Shown here: piece after piece, positions 2,288-9,659 of the stretch
How the letters are laid out: every line of letters starts with the position of its first letter
How positions within the stretch are numbered: position 1 is the first letter of the stretch
Source of the DNA: a virus
IMG/VR virus record: IMGVR_UViG_3300031857_000409
Coordinates: 1-43,448 of that record
DNA: 43,448 nucleotides
Direction: 5' to 3' (one strand)
Notes under the pieces: model-generated
Database searches by the model: none
Told to the model about the DNA's origin: nothing
The model's input: the letters and a program-made list of their open reading frames with translations, nothing else
Made by a program: the position numbers and the translations under genes

Positions 2288-2590
2288 ATTTGTTACCTCC
2301 TAGTTAACGGTCTTTCCCTTCTTTTTTGGGTGGCTTTAGAATAAACCTATATAAAAATATATAAAATAATATTATATATCTTTATATAGATTAGTGATTT
2401 AGGATTTATATATCTATAAATAAATAAATATATCGATCCGGAAGATCCGGTCGGGTCGAAGCTCGCGCAGCGAGCGAGGCGCCTGAGCAGCGTCCCCCGA
2501 AGGGGGGCCTGCGAAGGCGCAAGAAAGGGGGGGGACCCCCGGTCAAGTCGCGCATGAAGCACAACTCAACCGGGGGTCGAGGGGGGAAGG
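2288..2590. other. Gene-free interval: AT-rich tract beside GC-rich stem-loops
   Basis: No gene is supported here. Bases about 2340-2440 are nearly pure A/T with many TATATA, TTTATATAT and AAATAAATAAATA runs. Next to them lies GC-rich DNA with a GATCCGG direct repeat (near 2435-2450), a perfect GCTCGC-GCAGCGAGC hairpin (about 2461-2475), a nested stem in which GCGCCT pairs with AGGCGC around a CCCCC/GGGGG inner stem (about 2480-2520), and an inverted repeat with 10-bp perfect arms, GACCCCCGGT (2534-2543) and ACCGGGGGTC (2569-2578). The last follows the gene ending at 2591 and may act in termination. The pairing of an easily melted tract with stem-loops resembles a replication origin or other DNA-level signal. 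Nearer the 2287 gene is an A-rich AAAAAAGAAGGG leader motif. Confidence 0.55.
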
Positions 2591-2941
2591 TCAGAACGAC
2601 TGAGTGTCGTCGACCTTGGGGGTCCGGCGGTCGGACCAGGTGGTATCCGGCAGAGCCTCACCGTCGGTGAGAGCGACCGTGCCGAAGAATGAAACCTGAC
2701 GACGAGGAGCCTTGAGTGCCACACGGACATTCTGCTCATCGAGGTAGTCGACTTCGACATCACCGAACTTGATGGTCTGGGCGTCGATGCGGTTCCACTT
2801 CTGGGGAGCGAGACCTGCGGGGATGTACGCGAAATGCGTGACACCCTGCTGGAACTCGGGAGCGGTGAGCAGGACCTTGACGGTCTTGCCCGTGGACGAG
2901 GCCTCCGGAGAGACCCAAGTGATGGTGGGCATGGTACCCAT
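2591..2941 (-). CDS. Hypothetical beta-rich protein, 116 aa
   Basis: The start is the ATG at 2941, chosen because CAGGAGGTGCAATC precedes it exactly; the frame is open further upstream, but that part has no ribosome site. The protein begins MGTMPTITWVSPEASSTGKT and reads as alternating beta strands (VKVLLTAPEFQQGVTHFAYI, VEVDYLDEQNVRVALKA), probably one small beta-sandwich or OB-like domain. It has no cysteines, signal peptide or membrane span. It sits just downstream of the terminator of the 770-residue gene and so needs its own promoter in 2942-3133. There a TATATT near 3070 and a small ACTGT/ACAGT leader hairpin (2999-3013) are visible. The function is unknown. Confidence 0.75.
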   Translation of the reverse strand: MGTMPTITWVSPEASSTGKTVKVLLTAPEFQQGVTHFAYIPAGLAPQKWNRIDAQTIKFGDVEVDYLDEQNVRVALKAPRRQVSFFGTVALTDGEALPDTTWSDRRTPKVDDTQSF

Positions 2942-2998
2942 GATTGCACCTCCTGATGCGTTGTGGCGGGACGGGATTGTCCCTTCTTTTCTGGATGA

Positions 2999-3013
2999 AC
3001 TGTATCGGACAGT
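2999..3013 (-). promoter_or_regulatory. Leader hairpin before the 2941 gene
   Basis: In the leftward transcript ACTGT and ACAGT form a 5-bp stem around the loop CCGAT, about 60 bases before the start codon. It is the weakest member of the series of compact leader hairpins found upstream of several genes in this module (see 5546, 7011, 7415, 7922, 8448). Confidence 0.35.
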
Positions 3014-3133
3014 CCACCCAAGGTAAGATTCGGCAGTTCTAGCCTTACCCAACCCGCGAAAGCGCTTTAGAATATAACTTTTAATCATATTAAAGCACTC
3101 TGGGGCTTAAGGTCTGACTTGTGGCCTAGGCAC

Positions 3134-3182
3134 TACCCATAAAGAGAAAAGCCCCCACTACACTGGCAGTGTAGCAGGGGCT
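3134..3182 (-). terminator. Rho-independent terminator with ATGGGTA tag (copy 1)
   Basis: In the leftward direction AGCCCCTGCTACACTG pairs with CAGTGTAGTGGGGGCT over most of its length, followed by TTTTCTCTTT and then ATGGGTAG. It lies 27 bases beyond the stop codon of the 770-residue gene. It is the first of seven elements with the same plan (stem, T-rich tail, ATGGGTA). Confidence 0.85.
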
Positions 3183-3208
3183 GATCTCAGTCTCGGTTGT
3201 CCGTCTGG

Positions 3209-5521
3209 TTAACGGTTGGTCTTGCTCTGTTCGGCCTTGAGCGCCCGGATGAACCAGTCCAAAGGCTGCTTTTCGCTCTTGGCAGCGAGCGAGTACAGCC
3301 ACTGGTCGTGGTTGGCACGGGGCCACTGGGCTTTGGCGTTGAACGCTTCGTTGGCAAGGCGGAGAATCTTGCGATTTGTCCTCTCCTCACCGAACTCGGC
3401 GTCCGACTCCTCCAGGAGCTTCACGAACTCCTGAACCCAGTCAGCTGAACGGGACTTGCCGGCCTTTACCTTAGCCAACTCGTTGGGTGCATCCCGAATC
3501 TCTTCAGGCGTCCAACGGATGCTGGCCAGGATATCCGGCTTGGTGATGTTGGCGTTGAGCCAAAAGGTCATCTCCTCAAGGGCCTTGCGAGTCATCAACT
3601 CACGCTGCCTGTGAAGAGCCACCCAGGGCGATGCCTCAACATCTCCTGCAGTCAACCCGTGCATAAGAGCCAGTTCATCGTAGAGTCTGGTATGATACCA
3701 GAATGCATCCACGACTCCATTGGTCTTATTACGGAGCTGAGCAAAGATGTAGTCAGCAAAGTCCTTGATGATCATGATATCCTCTGGAGTAGCCATACCT
3801 TGCTGCAAAGCGTCAATGATATCCTCATTGGACGCCTTGTATTCAGGCAAATAGCCACCCACACAGGCCGCATAGACCATCTTGGGCAGAACTGCACCAC
3901 CGGTTCCAGCCGGGAAAAGCTCAGCAGCCGTGCGAACACGACGCTCATCTTCAAGAGAGAATTCATCACCGATGGTGAGATTCTTTCCTCCCGGCAGAGA
4001 TCCAATGGTAAGCTGATCCATCATCCAGCTGAACTGGGGAACCGTATTGAACAGTTCTTCCCAATCCACAACGGGAGGCTGATCAGTGTACGCATGGAAC
4101 ACTGGGCCTGGCTCGTTGACTGGAATGACGCTCCACTCACCGAAATCATTCGGATTGCGGAGCAGGAACGCTACCATCGTATCACCGATAGTACGGATAT
4201 GGACCTTGACCGTATCGTCCAAGTCAGGACCACCGTGGTCAGGAAGGTGCTTCTGGAAGAAAGCTCCAGGAACCACAAAGCTGTGTGTAGCTTCGTGGAA
4301 GAGCCCGAATTCTCCCTTGGGCATCTTGAAACCGGCAAGCTCCAAGACTTCCTTGGTCATGATGTGAGCGGCATAAGCCCACGGCACTGGGAACCAGTGA
4401 CGCGTCTTGTCCATCCACACACGACCCTTGTCGGCATTACCCAGGACTTGCTGCTTCAAACCATTCACGCTCAAGAACATGAGGGTCTGAGATGCAGTAA
4501 GAGGGACACCAAGCTTGTCAAGCTCAGCGACCTTTTCCTGAATCAATCCAACAAGGCCACGGTCAGACGAGAACCGGGACTCAACATCCTCGTGGAGAAC
4601 CTGCTCGGAATCAACCAAGCGGGTCAACCACTCAGACCTCTTGCCCTCTTTCAGGTCCGCGAAGAAAGTCTTCAGCATTCCATCCAGGGACTCAAGGAGA
4701 GTCTGGTCGTCGTACAGGCCCGACACACCACGATAGATAGCATGAGTGAGATCATCAGACTTCACCGGGATTGCTCCGTAGCTCGGTTCGATGGTTACCC
4801 ACTGCCATCCTGTGGTGCGGATCTCAGACTTGATGTTCGGGTCAAACGTTCTCACGTCATAGCCGTTCATCATTCGCCCGGGAAGAACAAGAGCATTGCC
4901 CTTAATCAACCCATCCGAGCAGAGCATACGGAAGCTCACAATGGCGGTTTTGCCAGAGTGAATCCTCCAGATCTGCTTGGCCCTCCACCGACGTGATGCA
5001 TCGGTATTGGAGCGAATGCACCGAAGTGCAAGCCTGCGACTGATGAAGCTGATGCCGTCAACGTAGCAGTCCGGATAGGAATGCTTGATGACTTCCAGCT
5101 TCAACGAGCCGTCTGGGACGTGGACCCACATGGACGCAGTCCGGACGATCTCAACCAGTCGCTTGCTCATCTTCTTGGAGTTTCGGATGATGAGTCCGAT
5201 TTCCTTGAAAGACGACAACCAGCCTTGATTGCCCTTGATGCGAACCATATACTGGTCCGATGCCGTGCTCCAGCGAATCACTTCACTGGAGAACAGCTGG
5301 TCATGGACAGCGGGAGACTCGGAGTTGATACCCCGCATCTTCCGCTGCTTGACCTTCCTGACTTCGACCCGGTACTTTCCCGGGAAGAAGATGTTCAGGA
5401 AGGCAGCCTGGTATGGGCCAGGCCTGAACTCCTCGATGACGGTTTCGCCATCAAGGAGTGCCGCTGAGGTGATCAGTCGAAACCAATAACCCTTTGCGGA
5501 CTTTACGATGCCGTGAAACAT
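3209..5521 (-). CDS. 770-aa early protein; possible divergent double-psi-barrel polymerase
   Basis: This is the largest protein of the leftward module, with start ATG at 5521 after AAGGAGGTGCACG. It is soluble, mixed alpha/beta, with no membrane span. Two stretches recall two-barrel RNA polymerases of the cellular RdRP/YonO class. One is KGNALVLPGRMMNGYDVRTF (about residues 225-244), which lies in a beta-rich part. The other is HGGPDLDDTVKVHIR (about 445-460), followed by LLRNPNDFGEW. The polymerase signature is D-x-D-G-D, and here it reads D-L-D-D-T. The R-N-P phrase lies after the acidic motif rather than before it, so catalytic function is doubtful or the layout is rearranged. The C-terminal third is helical. 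It is followed by terminator copy 1 and preceded by its own leader hairpin. The gene is certain; the family is only a hypothesis. Confidence 0.8.
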   Translation of the reverse strand: MFHGIVKSAKGYWFRLITSAALLDGETVIEEFRPGPYQAAFLNIFFPGKYRVEVRKVKQRKMRGINSESPAVHDQLFSSEVIRWSTASDQYMVRIKGNQGWLSSFKEIGLIIRNSKKMSKRLVEIVRTASMWVHVPDGSLKLEVIKHSYPDCYVDGISFISRRLALRCIRSNTDASRRWRAKQIWRIHSGKTAIVSFRMLCSDGLIKGNALVLPGRMMNGYDVRTFDPNIKSEIRTTGWQWVTIEPSYGAIPVKSDDLTHAIYRGVSGLYDDQTLLESLDGMLKTFFADLKEGKRSEWLTRLVDSEQVLHEDVESRFSSDRGLVGLIQEKVAELDKLGVPLTASQTLMFLSVNGLKQQVLGNADKGRVWMDKTRHWFPVPWAYAAHIMTKEVLELAGFKMPKGEFGLFHEATHSFVVPGAFFQKHLPDHGGPDLDDTVKVHIRTIGDTMVAFLLRNPNDFGEWSVIPVNEPGPVFHAYTDQPPVVDWEELFNTVPQFSWMMDQLTIGSLPGGKNLTIGDEFSLEDERRVRTAAELFPAGTGGAVLPKMVYAACVGGYLPEYKASNEDIIDALQQGMATPEDIMIIKDFADYIFAQLRNKTNGVVDAFWYHTRLYDELALMHGLTAGDVEASPWVALHRQRELMTRKALEEMTFWLNANITKPDILASIRWTPEEIRDAPNELAKVKAGKSRSADWVQEFVKLLEESDAEFGEERTNRKILRLANEAFNAKAQWPRANHDQWLYSLAAKSEKQPLDWFIRALKAEQSKTNR

Positions 5522-5545
5522 CGTGCACCTCCTTAGTGCTTTGAT

Positions 5546-5564
5546 GTGCAGAGGCCGTCTGCAC
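5546..5564 (-). promoter_or_regulatory. Leader hairpin before the 770-aa gene
   Basis: A perfect 7-bp stem, GTGCAGA with TCTGCAC, closes a CGGCC loop 25 bases upstream of the start codon and just before the AAGGAGG ribosome site. It is too short and lacks a T-run for a terminator. It is probably a 5' stability or regulatory hairpin of the early-gene series. Confidence 0.5.
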
Positions 5565-5603
5565 GCGGTTTGGGATCAACCTTGAACCTTGCGGCCTATG
5601 GTC

Positions 5604-5636
5604 TACCCATAATAAAGAGAGCCCCCGAAGGGGCTC
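5604..5636 (-). terminator. Rho-independent terminator with ATGGGTA tag (copy 2)
   Basis: Leftward, GAGCCCC and GGGGCTC form a 7-bp stem around a UUCG-type loop, followed by TCTTTATT and ATGGGTAG. It lies about 50 bases beyond the end of the 67-residue gene and separates it from the 770-residue gene. Confidence 0.85.
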
Positions 5637-5685
5637 CCACCTGTTATGTTACCTCGCTATCAGGTTGCGATGCTGTATACAGCTT

Positions 5686-5889
5686 TCAGTCGAACAGAGT
5701 CGGCTTCTGGAGCTTCTTCTGCTTGGCTGCTTCTTTGGCCTTGCGAATGTTGTCCTTCCACTCCTCGTAGTGGACATTGCACAGGGCCATCGGCTGTGGA
5801 TAAGCCACAAAGTGACCCTCTCCTCGCCGTAGTTTGACACGGCACTGGTGGCCTTTGCACCAGACGCCGTCCCATGATTGAAAAGCCAT
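5686..5889 (-). CDS. Small Cys/His-containing protein, 67 aa
   Basis: The start at 5889 is chosen from GAAAGGAGGCCAGTA-ATG. The protein begins MAFQSWDGVWCKGHQCRVKL and contains Cys at residues 11 and 16, then a later LCNVHYEEWK with Cys and His, and a basic coiled C-terminus (KAKEAAKQKKLQ). The C-x4-C ... C-x2-H pattern could bind one zinc ion, giving a small nucleic-acid or protein-binding fold. It lies 67 bases after the gene that starts at 6214, separated by a large hairpin (5913-5959). It is followed by terminator copy 2. The role is unknown. Confidence 0.7.
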   Translation of the reverse strand: MAFQSWDGVWCKGHQCRVKLRRGEGHFVAYPQPMALCNVHYEEWKDNIRKAKEAAKQKKLQKPTLFD

Positions 5890-5912
5890 TACTGGCCTCC
5901 TTTCTTGTTGGG

Positions 5913-5959
5913 TGAGTTGCCCCCAGAGCTGACCTCTTGGCTCCGGGGGCATTGACTCA
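5913..5959 (-). promoter_or_regulatory. Intergenic three-step hairpin between two early genes
   Basis: Three nested perfect stems, TGAGT/ACTCA, GCCCCC/GGGGGC and GAGC/GCTC, are separated by one to four unpaired bases. In the leftward message the outer base includes the TGA stop of the 85-residue gene, and the 67-residue gene starts about 24 bases later. No T-run follows, so full termination is unlikely. An RNA processing or decay barrier that sets different levels of the two proteins is the likeliest use. Confidence 0.6.
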
Positions 5960-6214
5960 CTTGTTGTTGTTGGTGTTGGCTGCGCGCCGCTCCTGGGCAA
6001 CGCGCAGGTTCTCCTGGGTCTTCAGGCCCTTGAGGACCTGGATGACCTGGTTCGCCCAGACCGTGGTCTGGATCTGGTCACCGGAGATGTGCCCCTTCAT
6101 CTTGCCGATGAGGGACTTGGCCTTCTCCTCGGAGAGAAGGTGGCCGACCTGTGCGAACAGGTCACGGATGAACGAGATCTGCTTCTCGCTCATGGGGTTG
6201 GTGTTTGCGGACAT
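5957..6214 (-). CDS. Hypothetical helical protein with SEKQ motif, 85 aa
   Basis: The start at 6214 follows TCAGGAGGAATC. The protein begins MSANTNPMSEKQISFIRDLF and continues with amphipathic helices (HLLSEEKAKSLIGKMKGHIS, VIQVLKGLKTQENLRVAQER) to a low-complexity NTNNNK tail. The phrase SEKQ..FI..L is common at the start of small helical phage and plasmid domains that accompany DNA-binding or recombination proteins, but I cannot name the family. It shares a message with the 67-residue gene downstream. The leader is long (6215-6363) and carries two stem-loops. Confidence 0.75.
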   Translation of the reverse strand: MSANTNPMSEKQISFIRDLFAQVGHLLSEEKAKSLIGKMKGHISGDQIQTTVWANQVIQVLKGLKTQENLRVAQERRAANTNNNK

Positions 6215-6298
6215 GATTCCTCCTGAATCTGTCTCGAATCGCATGGCGGGATTGCCACACTAACTTATGTCTACGTTATGGTGGACGCATGACGGACT

Positions 6299-6336
6299 AT
6301 GCACAAGCTCGTGCATGCTCTCTGAAGGAAGAGCAT
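6299..6336 (-). promoter_or_regulatory. Two adjoining leader stem-loops before the 85-aa gene
   Basis: Leftward, ATGCTCT pairs with AGAGCAT (outer limits 6336-6315), and directly after it ATGCAC pairs with GTGCAT around GAGCTT (6316-6299). They sit between terminator copy 3 and the 6214 start codon, in the same relative position as the other leader hairpins, although further from the start. Confidence 0.45.
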
Positions 6337-6363
6337 CCTGGGTGTGACCTGAGGTCTAAGTCT

Positions 6364-6400
6364 TACCCATGAAAAAGAGAGCCTCCGAAGAGGCCCTCTT
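6364..6400 (-). terminator. Rho-independent terminator with ATGGGTA tag (copy 3)
   Basis: Leftward, GGCCTC and GAGGCT pair around a UUCG-type tetraloop inside an AGAG/TCTCT extension, followed by CTTTTTC and ATGGGTAAG. It ends the LysM-protein gene, whose stop is about 20 bases upstream. Confidence 0.85.
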
Positions 6401-6421
6401 TCTCTGGCTGGCTTCCCTTGA

Positions 6422-6682
6422 CTAGGGAAACCAAACAATTTGGCCGACCCGAACATCGGCAGACTTGTTCAAGTCCACCATGTCCGAGACAACCTCTCCT
6501 GTGAGGTGACGAGGAGTGCAGTACTCCTCTGCCAGACCCCACAGGGTGTCGCCGGGCGCAGCAGTAACCGAGGTCACACTGCACCTGATGGGCTCCTCGG
6601 ACGAAAGCTCGATGAGCCCCCATCCAAGAAGGATTGGGAGAAGGACAACCATGATCCTCCTCCTGATATAGACTGCCTTCAT
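6422..6682 (-). CDS. Membrane-anchored LysM protein, 86 aa (YneA/ChiZ-like layout)
   Basis: The start at 6682 follows AGAAAGGAGGCTGTC. The N-terminus MKAVYIRRRIMVVLLPILLG gives a positive stretch then one membrane helix to about residue 28, so the rest should face outward. The remainder is a LysM domain: VTAAPGDTLWGLAEEYC ... MVDLNKSADVRVGQIVWFP, with the hallmark GDTLW start, Asn in DLNK and the closing VG..W.P. A short anchor plus one LysM is the layout of SOS-induced division suppressors (Bacillus YneA, Mycobacterium ChiZ), so a role in arresting host division or binding host peptidoglycan is plausible. It has no catalytic domain, so it is not a lysin. It is the only gene between terminators 3 and 4. 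Confidence 0.85.
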   Translation of the reverse strand: MKAVYIRRRIMVVLLPILLGWGLIELSSEEPIRCSVTSVTAAPGDTLWGLAEEYCTPRHLTGEVVSDMVDLNKSADVRVGQIVWFP

Positions 6683-6758
6683 GACAGCCTCCTTTCTCCC
6701 ATTTGTAGGCATGAGATAAGCCTTCTTTGGGTTTCGCCGCGATCATAGATCTAGCATC

Positions 6759-6798
6759 TACCCATAAAAAGAAAAGCTCCTGCGTTTGCAACAGGAGC
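6759..6798 (-). terminator. Rho-independent terminator with ATGGGTA tag (copy 4)
   Basis: Leftward, GCTCCTG pairs with CAGGAGC around TTGCAAACG, followed by TTTTCTTTTT and ATGGGTAG. It lies 15 bases after the stop of the 56-residue gene. Confidence 0.85.
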
Positions 6799-6812
6799 CT
6801 TCCTTTTCTGGA

Positions 6813-6983
6813 CTACTTGCCCAGGTTGGACCTCAGGGCGTTGAGGTCCAGCTCACCCTCCTTGTCGAAGGTGATGGGGGAGGAGAGGCCGTTCTCCTCG
6901 GGGTGGATGTTCTCATCGGTCGGCTTTCCGATGAGGTCCCGCAGCTCTTCCAAGCTGGGGTTGGTGGGTTGCATTTCTGCCAT
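6813..6983 (-). CDS. Small acidic hypothetical protein, 56 aa
   Basis: The start at 6983 follows TAGGAGGTAGTC, the same ribosome-site wording as the genes at 7897 and 8421. The protein begins MAEMQPTNPSLEELRDLIGK and continues PTDENIHPEENGLSSPITFD to a helical end NALRSNLGK. It is acidic and probably partly disordered, with two short helices. It is a single-gene unit between terminators 4 and 5, with its own leader hairpin at 7011-7033. The function is unknown. Confidence 0.7.
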   Translation of the reverse strand: MAEMQPTNPSLEELRDLIGKPTDENIHPEENGLSSPITFDKEGELDLNALRSNLGK

Positions 6984-7010
6984 GACTACCTCCTAAGTGG
7001 TCATACCCGT

Positions 7011-7033
7011 GCACAGGTTTTTCCGTACTGTGC
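7011..7033 (-). promoter_or_regulatory. Leader hairpin before the 56-aa gene
   Basis: A perfect 6-bp stem, GCACAG with CTGTGC, closes an 11-base loop TACGGAAAAAC about 28 bases before the start codon. The loop begins TACG like two of the three GTTAAG-type loops (7415, 8448) but lacks GTTAAG, so it is a related but distinct member. Confidence 0.5.
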
Positions 7034-7073
7034 TACATACGGTTGTTGGGTAAGACCTTTGAGGTCTGCAAAC

Positions 7074-7115
7074 TACCCATGAAAAGAAAAGCTCCCTGCG
7101 CGCATGCAGAGAGCT
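7074..7115 (-). terminator. Rho-independent terminator with ATGGGTA tag (copy 5)
   Basis: Leftward, AGCTCTCTGC pairs with GCAGGGAGCT (one G-U) around ATGCGC, followed by TTTTCTTTTC and ATGGGTAG. It ends the gene for the 86-residue membrane protein 15 bases upstream. Confidence 0.85.
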
Positions 7116-7130
7116 CTCTTTTCTGGAGGA

Positions 7131-7391
7131 CTAGAGCGTCCAGTCCTCCTCTTCGTCCTCCTCGTTGTTTCCGAGGAAGAAGTCTTCCAGGACGCCCCGG
7201 TTGTAGGCGACCCACAGGCCACCTGCCACCAAGGTGACGAACACCAGACCCAGGGGGTTGATGGCCCCCAGGATGGTGAACGTGATCCCCAGCATGAAGC
7301 CGAGGATTGCAAACGCCCAGCTCACCACGGGGGTGAACAGGGCGATGACGACAGCCGCCACGATGGCGACTCGGTTAGTGTTGTTGAACAT
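7131..7391 (-). CDS. Small two-span membrane protein with acidic tail, 86 aa
   Basis: The start at 7391 follows CTAGGAGGAGTC. The N-terminus MFNNTNRVAIVAAVVIALFT opens a first hydrophobic segment. Together with FAILGFMLGITFTILGAI and LGLVFVTLVAGGLWVAY, two or three membrane helices run from about residue 7 to 64. The tail GNNEEDEEEDWTL is very acidic and probably cytoplasmic. It has no enzyme motif and no holin-specific feature beyond size; its place in the early module makes a holin less likely than a membrane-takeover protein. It is a single-gene unit with a GTTAAG-type leader hairpin at 7415-7437. Confidence 0.75.
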   Translation of the reverse strand: MFNNTNRVAIVAAVVIALFTPVVSWAFAILGFMLGITFTILGAINPLGLVFVTLVAGGLWVAYNRGVLEDFFLGNNEEDEEEDWTL

Positions 7392-7414
7392 GACTCCTCC
7401 TAGAGCATGTGCAT

Positions 7415-7437
7415 GACGAAACTTAACGTACTCCGTC
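7415..7437 (-). promoter_or_regulatory. GTTAAG-loop leader hairpin (copy 1)
   Basis: Leftward, GACGGAG pairs with TTTCGTC (two G-U) around the 9-base loop TACGTTAAG, about 24 bases before the start codon and just ahead of the ribosome site. The stem sequence differs from the copies at 7922 and 8448 while pairing is kept. Confidence 0.6.
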
Positions 7438-7458
7438 TGATTATTACGTTTGATGATA

Positions 7459-7475
7459 CGATGCGCCGCATCAAC
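7459..7475. repeat. Repeated GATGCGGCGCATC box (copy 1)
   Basis: The plus-strand reads CGATGCGCCGCATCAAC, matched at 7964-7980 with one change. It is nearly palindromic and lies about 20-40 bases further upstream than the leader hairpin in both units. It may be an operator or part of the early promoter; no standard -35/-10 pair can be placed on it with confidence. Confidence 0.5.
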
Positions 7476-7591
7476 AAAACCCTATGTTATTAACATGTCT
7501 CACGACACATTCATGCTGGGGTACATTCGCATGGTTCTCGTTGTCAGTTTATTTATAGTCCCCAACAACCAGGACTTCGGGATCATATAGA

Positions 7592-7631
7592 TACCCATAA
7601 AGAGAAAAGCCTCTGGGCACATCCAGAGGCT
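7592..7631 (-). terminator. Rho-independent terminator with ATGGGTA tag (copy 6)
   Basis: Leftward, AGCCTCTGG pairs perfectly with CCAGAGGCT around ATGTGC, followed by TTTTCTCTTT and ATGGGTAT. It ends the 83-residue gene 15 bases upstream. The interval 7392-7591 beyond it holds the leader of the membrane-protein gene and no other gene I can support. Confidence 0.85.
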
Positions 7632-7645
7632 ATCTCTTTCACTTA

Positions 7646-7897
7646 TCAGGCGAGGTGAATGGTGTGGTGGGTGACCACCGTGTTGTTCCAGTTGGTGTGA
7701 GCGACGATGGCCACACGCTTCCCGGTGAACTCCCGCATGAACCACTGCGGGTCATTGTGGGTGTGGTTGAAGAGGACCGAGTCGGTCTCGCCACCACCAT
7801 TGGCACGGATCCACACGTGGACACCATCGTGTCCAACGACCTTGCCTGTGTAGACGAGGTCTCCGTTGATTGCCGTGTTGTTACGGGTAATGTACAT
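7646..7897 (-). CDS. Small beta-rich hypothetical protein, 83 aa
   Basis: The start at 7897 is chosen from TTGGAGGTAGTC-ATG; four upstream codons in frame have no ribosome site. The protein begins MYITRNNTAINGDLVYTGKV and is made of short beta strands (GHDGVHVWIRANGGG, KRVAIVAHTNWNNTVVTHHT) with many His and Asn residues, probably a small barrel such as an SH3-like or OB-like fold. It has no cysteines. It is a single-gene unit between terminators 6 and 7 with a GTTAAG hairpin in the leader and a 42-base leader repeat shared with the 8421 gene. The function is unknown. Confidence 0.75.
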   Translation of the reverse strand: MYITRNNTAINGDLVYTGKVVGHDGVHVWIRANGGGETDSVLFNHTHNDPQWFMREFTGKRVAIVAHTNWNNTVVTHHTIHLA

Positions 7898-7921
7898 GAC
7901 TACCTCCAAGTAGTATGCTTT

Positions 7922-7942
7922 GTCTGACTTAACCCATCAGAC
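7922..7942 (-). promoter_or_regulatory. GTTAAG-loop leader hairpin (copy 2)
   Basis: Leftward, GTCTGA pairs perfectly with TCAGAC around the 9-base loop TGGGTTAAG, about 25 bases before the start codon of the 83-residue gene. It has the same length and place as the copy at 8448, with an unrelated but still complementary stem. Confidence 0.65.
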
Positions 7943-7963
7943 GTGATTATTGGGTTGTTAATG

Positions 7964-7980
7964 CGATGTGCCGCATCAAC
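7964..7980. repeat. Repeated GATGCGGCGCATC box (copy 2)
   Basis: The plus strand reads CGATGTGCCGCATCAAC, one base different from 7459-7475, again upstream of a GTTAAG hairpin. It is next to the 42-base leader repeat at 7984-8025. Confidence 0.5.
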
Positions 7981-7983
7981 GAT

Positions 7984-8025
7984 ATGCACTGTTTTACTTG
8001 CCAGCATGATTGCAAGGTTCTTTCT
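7984..8025 (-). repeat. 42-base leader repeat (copy 1)
   Basis: This block matches 8507-8548 at 39 of 42 positions. Leftward it begins AGAAAGAACCTTGC and ends GGCAAGTAAAACAGTGCAT. CTTGC and GGCAAG can pair to form a hairpin within it. It lies between the terminator tag and the leader hairpin, where the promoter of each unit must be, so it is the best candidate for the early promoter or its operator. Confidence 0.7.
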
Positions 8026-8064
8026 GTATCTTCGGATCAGACCCCTAGGATGAGGTTGTTAACC

Positions 8065-8104
8065 TACCCATAAAGAAAAAAGCCCCTGTACACACACAGG
8101 GGCT
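8065..8104 (-). terminator. Rho-independent terminator with ATGGGTA tag (copy 7)
   Basis: Leftward, AGCCCCTGT pairs perfectly with ACAGGGGCT around GTGTGT, followed by TTTTTTCTTT and ATGGGTAG. It ends the 100-residue gene 15 bases upstream. Confidence 0.85.
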
Positions 8105-8118
8105 CTCTCCTTCATCCG

Positions 8119-8421
8119 TCAGAGCTCGATGCTCGGACGGGTGGTCTTCTCCTTCTCGATGAGGCCGTTCTCACGACCCCACTTCAGGAGAGTGGTGATC
8201 TCCACCTCCATGGTCTGCTGACCATAGCGGAAGACCATCTTTGCGGGTCCGTACTTGCGCACGTCCACCGCCTTGCCATCCCCGCCATGAGCGGAGATGT
8301 ATGCCCTCAAGAGCTTCTCGTGAAGCTCCTGCTGACGGAAGATATCGCCAAGGCCAGCAAAGGCCCCGGCAATACCATCCATGATCTGCCGAAGGTCCTC
8401 GGCAGCACGGTCGTTGCTCAT
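8119..8421 (-). CDS. Hypothetical protein, 100 aa, first gene of the leftward module
   Basis: The start at 8421 follows TGGGAGGTAGATT. The protein begins MSNDRAAEDLRQIMDGIAGA; the first half is helical (FAGLGDIFRQQELHEKLLRA) and the second half has strands (AKMVFRYGQQTMEVEITTLL) and an acidic/basic tail. It has no cysteines or membrane span. It is the first gene of the leftward block, so its promoter in 8422-8600 should fire first. It is a single-gene unit ended by terminator copy 7. The function is unknown. Confidence 0.75.
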   Translation of the reverse strand: MSNDRAAEDLRQIMDGIAGAFAGLGDIFRQQELHEKLLRAYISAHGGDGKAVDVRKYGPAKMVFRYGQQTMEVEITTLLKWGRENGLIEKEKTTRPSIEL

Positions 8422-8447
8422 AATCTACCTCCCAGTAGTGCAACGGT

Positions 8448-8468
8448 GCACGGCTTAACGTACCGTAC
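8448..8468 (-). promoter_or_regulatory. GTTAAG-loop leader hairpin (copy 3)
   Basis: Leftward, GTACGG pairs with CCGTGC (one G-U) around the 9-base loop TACGTTAAG, about 26 bases before the start codon of the 100-residue gene. With copies 1 and 2 it shows changed stems, kept pairing and a constant loop. Confidence 0.65.
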
Positions 8469-8506
8469 GTGGTGATCACGTGTGCGCATGGTGTGTCATA
8501 CGACTA

Positions 8507-8548
8507 ATGCGCTGTTTTACTTGCCAGCATCATCGCAAGGTTCTTTCT
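8507..8548 (-). repeat. 42-base leader repeat (copy 2)
   Basis: It matches 7984-8025 at 39 of 42 positions and has the same position relative to the leader hairpin of the gene it serves. The differences fall in the loop of the CTTGC/GCAAG stem and near the ACAGCGCAT end. Confidence 0.7.
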
Positions 8549-8745
8549 CCTCTTCTTTATCCTCCTAGAAGACAGGAGGGGACCCCATACCCGGGTGGGC
8601 TCGTTAAAGCTTTGTGACGGGCATAGTATCCATAGGTTCCCCCCCATAAATTTTCCCCTATTTTTACCCTATAATGACTTTTATATATTCTTATATATGT
8701 TCACATAGGTTCGCCAAAAAAATCCAAGAAATATCCCAGAACGAG

Positions 8746-8774
8746 TTGACACATCCACCACTACCCGATAGATT
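8746..8774 (+). promoter_or_regulatory. Sigma-70-type promoter, rightward
   Basis: A perfect TTGACA at 8746-8751 and TAGATT at 8769-8774 are separated by exactly 17 bases. Transcription would begin about 75 bases before the 58-residue gene at 8860. It is the clearest -35 box in the right-hand strand of this interval. Confidence 0.65.
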
Positions 8775-8859
8775 GCTCCCTGTTGGTCACTTCCAGACAA
8801 AGTGGCCGGCTAAAACAAATAAGATACAATCCCTTATACCAAAGGAGAAGAAAACCAAA

Positions 8860-9036
8860 ATGCCCACCAACCCTGTAGACCACCTTGACCCAGAAGACTT
8901 CTATCGTCTAGAGACAGAAGAAGAGGTCAACCAGTTCATAGAGTCATACCAAATCGGCGGCTTTGACAAATACAGAGAGTCTGCCTATGGAGACTATGAC
9001 ATAGACAACTACGGATGGGATGACTACTCCTACTAG
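8860..9036 (+). CDS. Small acidic tyrosine-rich protein, 58 aa
   Basis: The start at 8860 is chosen because AAAGGAGAAG precedes it; the frame is open upstream without a ribosome site. The protein begins MPTNPVDHLDPEDFYRLETE and ends with a striking acidic/aromatic tail (YGDYDIDNYGWDDYSY). The charge is strongly negative. Such acidic mimics are common among phage proteins that block host DNA-binding enzymes, but no specific family is recognised. It is transcribed from the promoter at 8746 together with the next gene. Confidence 0.65.
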   Translation: MPTNPVDHLDPEDFYRLETEEEVNQFIESYQIGGFDKYRESAYGDYDIDNYGWDDYSY

Positions 9037-9089
9037 AGTGGCCCATAATAATATTTCAAACTAGAATAAGAAAGCCCACTAAAATTCAA

Positions 9090-9659
9090 ATGAACACAAA
9101 TACAATGCCAAACAACATACTGGTAGGATCAGAGAAGCTTTTCAGAACAAAAGCTCCTTGGAGAATATCACATTCCCTCTATGGAGAGATGACCAAAGAT
9201 CATTCCTGTATTCTATTCAACTATAATCTCAATGTATTATCACCAACCAAAGTAGCAAAGCACATAGGTCGCCATATCTATGATAAAGCACAACATCCCC
9301 ATGAAAAGATCACCTTCATAGGAATAGGTAGAGATACAGAGATTCTCTATGAATTGAATGAGCTAGGATTTGTGTTTGACGCAGCGGTTTTGGTCAATCA
9401 CGAAATGAATCCAAAGATGTTTGAAGCCGGCTTTGAGAGAACAGCCATCTACAACTTTTGTACGAAGGTACACGAATACAAAGATTCCATCATTCAGGGA
9501 GCTGAATGTAACGAATACGTGAGAACATATGTTCCGGCCCATATGTCAAATAGACTCGCAAAAGAGATCTTTGGCAATGTGGTTTATCAGAGCTATGAAG
9601 TGAACTACCTCAATGATGTGGTTCCAACCTTCAAATACTTAGAAGATATTCCAGCCTAG
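9090..9659 (+). CDS. Hypothetical protein, 189 aa, alpha/beta fold
   Basis: The ATG at 9090 begins MNTNTMPNNILVGSEKLFRT. A second ATG at residue 6 is possible, and neither has a good ribosome site. The middle shows an alternating strand-helix pattern (SCILFNYNLNVLSP, KITFIGIGRDTEILYELNEL, GFVFDAAVLVNHEMN), like an alpha/beta hydrolase or Rossmann core. A hydrolase G-x-S-x-G elbow is absent; the equivalent place reads GIGRD, so hydrolase activity is unlikely. A His occurs in VPAHMS near the end. It is followed by a convergent leftward gene; no clear terminator is seen in 9660-9685. Confidence 0.65.
   Translation: MNTNTMPNNILVGSEKLFRTKAPWRISHSLYGEMTKDHSCILFNYNLNVLSPTKVAKHIGRHIYDKAQHPHEKITFIGIGRDTEILYELNELGFVFDAAVLVNHEMNPKMFEAGFERTAIYNFCTKVHEYKDSIIQGAECNEYVRTYVPAHMSNRLAKEIFGNVVYQSYEVNYLNDVVPTFKYLEDIPA

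Follow-up and report, generated by a model that had tools for sequence, protein, structure and literature searches.

Phage 0305phi8-36 of Bacillus thuringiensis is described as carrying an RNA interference (RNAi)-type polymerase (orf99), 14 candidate phage promoters of 21 bp and a region whose small genes are monocistronic (PMC2147016). Thermus phage P23-45 encodes a non-virion (gp64) and a virion (gp96) polymerase and has two promoter motifs along with a conserved termination motif (PMC10770324). The polymerase YonO of phage SPbeta drives one late operon, and the paper describing it left the promoter sequence undetermined (PMC5467207). For the non-virion RNA polymerase of phiKZ, promoters read TATG, with transcription starting at the G (PMC5312081). 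Here we analyzed IMG/VR virus record IMGVR_UViG_3300031857_000409, a stretch of 43,448 nt (the window), in which a cluster of mostly small genes is punctuated by seven junctions of common design: a GC-rich hairpin, a pyrimidine tract rich in T, and the heptamer ATGGGTA (the tag). We consider it likely that these junctions are composite, each being a terminator whose U-tract doubles as the core of a phage-polymerase promoter and gives rise to an mRNA with a 5' stem-loop.

The initial annotation placed TACCCAT, the plus-strand form of the tag, at 3134, 5604, 6364, 6759, 7074, 7592 and 8065, and all seven positions were confirmed. The heptamer occurs 12 times in the window versus 3.5 ± 1.9 expected, a count reached in 0 of 100 shuffles. 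The remaining five copies have no hairpin and T-run ahead of them; the copy at 2935 falls on the start codon of the gene at 2941–2591. The seven junctions, all on the minus strand, run from stem through pyrimidine tract to tag: junction 7 (8065–8104; stem 8104–8081, ATGGGTA 8071–8065), junction 6 (7592–7631; stem 7631–7608, tag 7598–7592), junction 5 (7074–7118; stem 7118–7087, tag 7080–7074), junction 4 (6759–6798; stem 6798–6776, tag 6765–6759), junction 3 (6364–6394; stem 6394–6381, tag 6370–6364), junction 2 (5604–5638; stem 5638–5617, tag 5610–5604), which lies ahead of a gene for a predicted polymerase, and junction 1 (3134–3182; stem 3182–3150, tag 3140–3134), between that gene and the last gene of the cluster. 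At junctions 5 and 3, leader stems of the form TGGGTA..TACCCA and TGGGT..ACCCA, respectively, accompany the tag. A composite pattern, GCTYTYYTYWTYATGGGTA, comprising the stem-closing GC, a pyrimidine tract of fixed length and ATGGGTA, fits 7/7 of these sites, and everywhere else the window differs from it by more than 3 mismatches. Each junction in the window thus has the GC stem-loop and U-tract of an intrinsic terminator, features that are weak or absent at a few tags in relatives. As first noted, the stems differ in sequence while sharing a layout, with the distance to the tag fixed. The accompanying claim that every transcription unit ends in this way holds for the seven junctions but not throughout, since no terminator separates 6214–5957 from 5889–5686 and the first gene of the cluster (8421–8119) has no preceding tag. 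The spacing from stop codon to stem, given earlier as 15–25 for five of the seven, is 12–47 nt.

The window belongs to a family of uncultured, metagenome-derived freshwater phages with genomes of ~200 kb. A sister contig carries terminase and polymerase genes that are both identical to those of the window, and terminase comparison identified further contigs (83–86% identical), several of them ~200 kb. No match was obtained when the region was compared at the DNA level with 50,697 phage records, or window 2300–9200 with Rfam. In the seven array-bearing records of at least 61 kb, T-run plus ATGGGTA occurs in 5–13 copies, on one strand and in one cluster; the reversed pattern occurs 0–2 times in the same records. 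Overall, copy numbers in the relatives of about 200 kb range from 6 to 20. A 210-kb relative (G003) has 14 tags inside 115,980–126,004 and two weak matches elsewhere. When this genome was searched for hairpins followed by a T-run, the tag was found at 13/13 terminators of the cluster versus 0/14 outside it, which shows that the tag is not a general terminator feature in these phages. Two DNA-pattern matches outside the cluster type (L001 and L002) have a T-run with no hairpin ahead of it and are apparently unrelated.

From ten loci we compiled 84 non-redundant sites, among them a few chance matches within coding sequence. The consensus comprises a G-rich stem end, T4-Y3-T3, ATGGGTAG, N4 and (T)AGRYC, and extends from about –11 to +19. 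The letters ATGGG were a search requirement, and the evidence of conservation therefore comes from the T-run, the AGRYC block and the G that follows the tag. Several sites have the T-run and tag with an absent or weak hairpin. Two of these (L121 2261 and L126 4816) are at the top of their clusters, with no same-strand gene just upstream; others lie within a cluster (L125 5441 and 8737) or in another clade (L136 8397). Tags stand ahead of genes, the nearest start codon being 37 nt away by gene calls from a simple heuristic combining open reading frame (ORF) and ribosome site. Together with the untagged end of the last gene in the window, the hairpin-less tags and the genes behind tags indicate that the tag belongs to the following unit. 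This is a repeated, strand-consistent motif ahead of genes, the pattern looked for in phage promoters, and from sequence we judge that the tag is probably the promoter of the gene that follows. A search of the literature for phage promoters reading TATGGGTA returned chance strings only. Stoperator- or SAS-type actinophage sites, which we took to be candidates, were dropped, as was a SigB/SigF-type –10 element (GGGTAT), for which no GTTT lay at the required distance.

A candidate reader of the motif is encoded at 3209–5521 (minus strand), a 770-amino-acid (aa) protein with a predicted single-chain two-barrel RNA polymerase fold of the QDE-1/RDR2/gp64 kind. Its gene is common to the cluster-bearing relatives, with a tag or tag-like site ahead of it in most. 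Sequence searches of Pfam, PHROGs, PDB and phage records with the protein gave no match. The Pfam RNA-dependent RNA polymerase (RdRP) model matched none of 16 family members, and hhalign against a YonO homologue profile gave a probability of 0.1, i.e. no similarity. The family occurs in 0 of 84,980 species genomes, which therefore offer no clue to the host. An AlphaFold model built with 20 homologues had a predicted local distance difference test (pLDDT) score of 85.7 and a predicted template modelling (pTM) score of 0.79. With this model, Foldseek returned QDE-1 at the top (E 2.4e-6, probability 1.00), then gp64 and gp62 of Thermus phage. On structural re-alignment 17 two-barrel polymerase entries led, with Z scores of 12.6 over 568 residues for RDR2, about 11 for gp62/gp64 and 7.8 for gp96; the next unrelated entry scored 5.5. 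An earlier model from a shallower alignment (pLDDT 65) gave weak Foldseek matches, and the first nine rows of its re-alignment were all RDR/QDE-1. The two-barrel fold spans most of the 770-aa chain in the predicted structure, and we are confident, on the strength of the model, that the protein has the fold of a two-barrel RNA polymerase. The candidate catalytic motif is HGGxDxDD (HGGPDLDD in the window), in which D433, D435 and D436 are invariant in 20/20 homologues. By eye, DLD-DTVKVHI resembles cellular DFDGDQMAVHV minus the glycine. K207 and K231 are also invariant in the 20-homologue alignment and may be counterparts of the QDE-1 active-site lysines. A search for a second, DxDGD-bearing polymerase among ORFs of at least 250 aa in G003 and the window gave one match each, a 524–537-aa protein beside the terminase gene. 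The T7-type polymerase model PF00940 had no match in five records, and control genomes likewise gave none.

The tag varies with the polymerase. In L118, L119 and L133, which form one clade of the polymerase tree (support 99/98), most copies read GAGGATAG, GCCAATAG, GCGAATAG or ATGGATAG in place of ATGGGTAG. Copies from the most divergent polymerase clade show ATGACTAG or ATGGCTAG, and L117 has ATGGGTAG alongside shortened GGTAG forms. Relatives in which the stem but not the tag is conserved had been proposed as a refutation. In L118, L119 and L133 the stems do stay and the tag is changed, in nearly all copies together. Such coordinated change within a genome is expected of a site read in trans, though common descent or host differences could contribute. 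Within the most divergent clade, over the 10 kb that precede the polymerase gene, L135 and L136 have five to eight junctions with a tag, and L130, L132, L134, L137 and L139 have few or none there; in the latter the cluster may be smaller or located elsewhere.

The tag also varies with its own leader. Variant tags have a complementary partner in the leader behind them in 27/82 cases versus 8.0 expected (maximum 18 in 3000 permutations), with covarying pairs such as GACTAG/CTAGTC, GGCTAG/CTAGCC, GGATAG/CTATCC and GAATAG/CTATTC. AGRYC forms an inner stem that likewise covaries (16/77 versus 6.6, P about 0.001). Relatedness among the leaders is retained in the permutations, which puts these P values at the upper end. 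The first G past the pyrimidine run, or a position just ahead of it, is where pairing sets in, suggesting that the mRNA starts there.

These data suggest the following scheme. On the minus strand, the GC hairpin and U-tract would terminate the transcript of the upstream small gene, while the T-run plus ATGGGTAG would serve as core promoter of the next. The reader of this promoter is most likely the phage's own single-chain two-barrel polymerase, which, its gene lying behind such a promoter, could amplify its own expression. The probable start site is the purine that comes first behind the pyrimidine run, either the A of ATGGG or its first G, which would make the tag the 5'-terminal sequence of the mRNA. 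In many units this end would pair with a partner 20–35 nt downstream to form a 5'-terminal stem-loop, which might stabilize the mRNA; expression of the cluster may be early. Among the uses first suggested for the tag, the start of the next promoter fits best, given tags before genes, hairpin-less tags, untagged terminators elsewhere and the two-barrel fold; antitermination found no support.

Several observations weigh against this scheme. The first gene of the window has no tag. The catalytic candidate, DxDD, is one residue shorter than DxDxD, and no conserved DxDxD is present. The joint difference in tag and polymerase clade could be due to shared descent alone, and ATGGGTAG is common to polymerases that are only ~50% identical, meaning that changes in specificity have been few. 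Finally, a clear tag–leader stem is seen in about a third of units only.

A bolder version, to which we assign a low probability, is a relay of termination and restart. Here the polymerase would free its RNA at the junction without leaving the DNA and begin another mRNA no more than about a dozen bases on; a single enzyme in a single pass would thereby yield a string of separate hairpin-ended mRNAs. Such a relay is conceivable because the terminator U-tract would itself be the core promoter of the next unit. The enzyme in this relay would represent a new family by sequence, one whose catalytic loop is shortened to DxDD.

Alternatively, the junctions could be processing sites, as the initial annotation also allowed: one long transcript would pass through leaky hairpins, and an endonuclease would cut the U-rich linker to give monocistronic mRNAs. 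The conserved linker, flanked by a 3' hairpin and a 5' leader stem, would suit such a nuclease, as would the pairing of the tag in RNA. Moreover, a cutter acting between genes would leave no tag before the first gene and none after the last, as observed in the window. Yet the tags at L121 2261 and L126 4816, at the top of their clusters with no gene on the same strand just upstream, speak against processing; every junction has a strong terminator-like hairpin, and no nuclease site of this type is known. We therefore regard processing as unlikely.

Recognition by the host RNA polymerase, helped by an unrecognized host or phage factor, is similarly improbable. The two-barrel polymerase would then serve other genes, much as YonO serves late genes and not its own neighborhood (PMC5467207). 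However, upstream of –14 no position in the 84 sites exceeds 0.4 bit and no –35-like element is evident, nor do these sites contain a TATAAT-like –10 hexamer, so that no sigma-70 promoter with 16–18 bp spacing can be recognized. None of the matches in a sigma-70 scan of the window falls on a junction. Intergenic matches in G003 (26, plus 2 in the window) exceed the reversed control (15) weakly, an excess that does not allow the rest of the G003 genome to be assigned to host promoters. In the long relatives, models for sigma-70 region 2 and the cellular beta/beta' domains found no match. That the tag varies with polymerase clade also argues against a host enzyme and for the phage-polymerase promoter.

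Could the tag instead be part of the terminator? The phage polymerase of P23-45 offers a precedent, a 26-nt motif found at seven termination sites (PMC10770324), and the fixed distance from hairpin to tag would fit. But tags exist without a hairpin and without a gene just upstream, the last gene is untagged at its end, as are all the G003 terminators outside the cluster, and the pairing partner of the tag is the downstream leader, making this reading very doubtful. Least credible is a recombination seam for cassette shuffling, another of the initial suggestions, for which the reordering of genes and leaders between relatives (the same items recurring) is the sole sign, whereas a seam needs neither covariation in an RNA stem nor coordinated change with the clade of one gene. 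We thus favor a promoter read by the phage polymerase.

The remaining genes of the cluster, all on the minus strand, are small. Behind the first (8119–8421, 100 aa) come 7646–7897 (83 aa), 7131–7391 (86 aa), 6813–6983 (56 aa), 6422–6682 (86 aa, with a LysM domain), 5957–6214 (85 aa) and 5686–5889 (67 aa), the last two forming one unit; apart from the LysM protein, none has an assigned function. The last gene of the cluster (2591–2941, 116 aa) lies behind junction 1 and has no tag after it. Past it, at 2521–2585 (minus strand), is a long GC hairpin (GACCCCCGGTT...ACCGGGGGTC) that is terminator-like and untagged. At the top of the cluster, the untagged first gene sits behind a conserved AT-rich, non-coding block (8580–8715, minus strand; AAAATAGGGxAAAATTT ... 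TTTAACGAG) that is recognizable in five relatives or contigs, including L117, L121, L126 and L099. This block may be an entry promoter or have another control function. A stretch reading TTTTACTTGCCAGCATSATYGCAAGGTTCTTTCT on the plus strand recurs almost unchanged in the leaders of the first and second genes (8504–8552 and 7985–8029), as if duplicated; the first gene may have lost its tag. Two leaders contain palindrome-like GATGCGSCRCATC repeats (window 7460–7480 and 7962–7980), a possible regulator site. Elsewhere in the window, 31582–33396 (plus strand) encodes a 604-aa protein with a ferritin-like domain in mid-chain (PHROG 'DNA binding protein'), and 39452–43024 (plus strand) encodes a 1190-aa protein with several stretches of collagen triple-helix repeats, probably a fibre.

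The locus ties an orphan repeated motif to a phage RNA polymerase family that sequence searches miss, and offers about 150 candidate promoters whose natural variants are matched to polymerase variants. Promoter recognition by single-chain two-barrel polymerases thereby becomes directly testable. A promoter that overlaps the U-tract of the preceding terminator would be an economical design for a gene cluster; should it be confirmed, it might serve as an orthogonal part for expression.

Among known systems, 0305phi8-36 is similar in being a ~200-kb phage with an RNAi-type single-chain polymerase, repeated promoter candidates and one transcript per small gene. Its orf99, however, was found with the Pfam RdRP model after extension, whereas the window protein was found by no sequence search, and overlap of promoter and terminator is not among the features described in the portions of that report drawn on here (PMC2147016). 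P23-45 likewise has single-chain two-barrel polymerases, gp64 and gp62 being among our best structural matches, and short phage-specific promoters in its early region. But its enzymes have DxDxD rather than DxDD, and its promoter motifs are AT-rich or GC-rich rather than a T-run plus ATGGGTAG laid over a terminator. YonO is also a phage single-chain polymerase of the two-barrel kind, of about 100 kDa, yet has no profile similarity to the window family. The phiKZ promoters are reminiscent of the tag, which reads T-run-ATG-GG, and the leader stem is consistent with transcription beginning inside ATG. The phiKZ enzyme is multisubunit, however, and its motif is shorter than the one described here, which comes after the U-tract of a terminator. 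This locus stands apart from these precedents in the proposed overlap of promoter and preceding U-tract, in its polymerase family and the shorter candidate catalytic motif of that family, and in a 5' stem that covaries.

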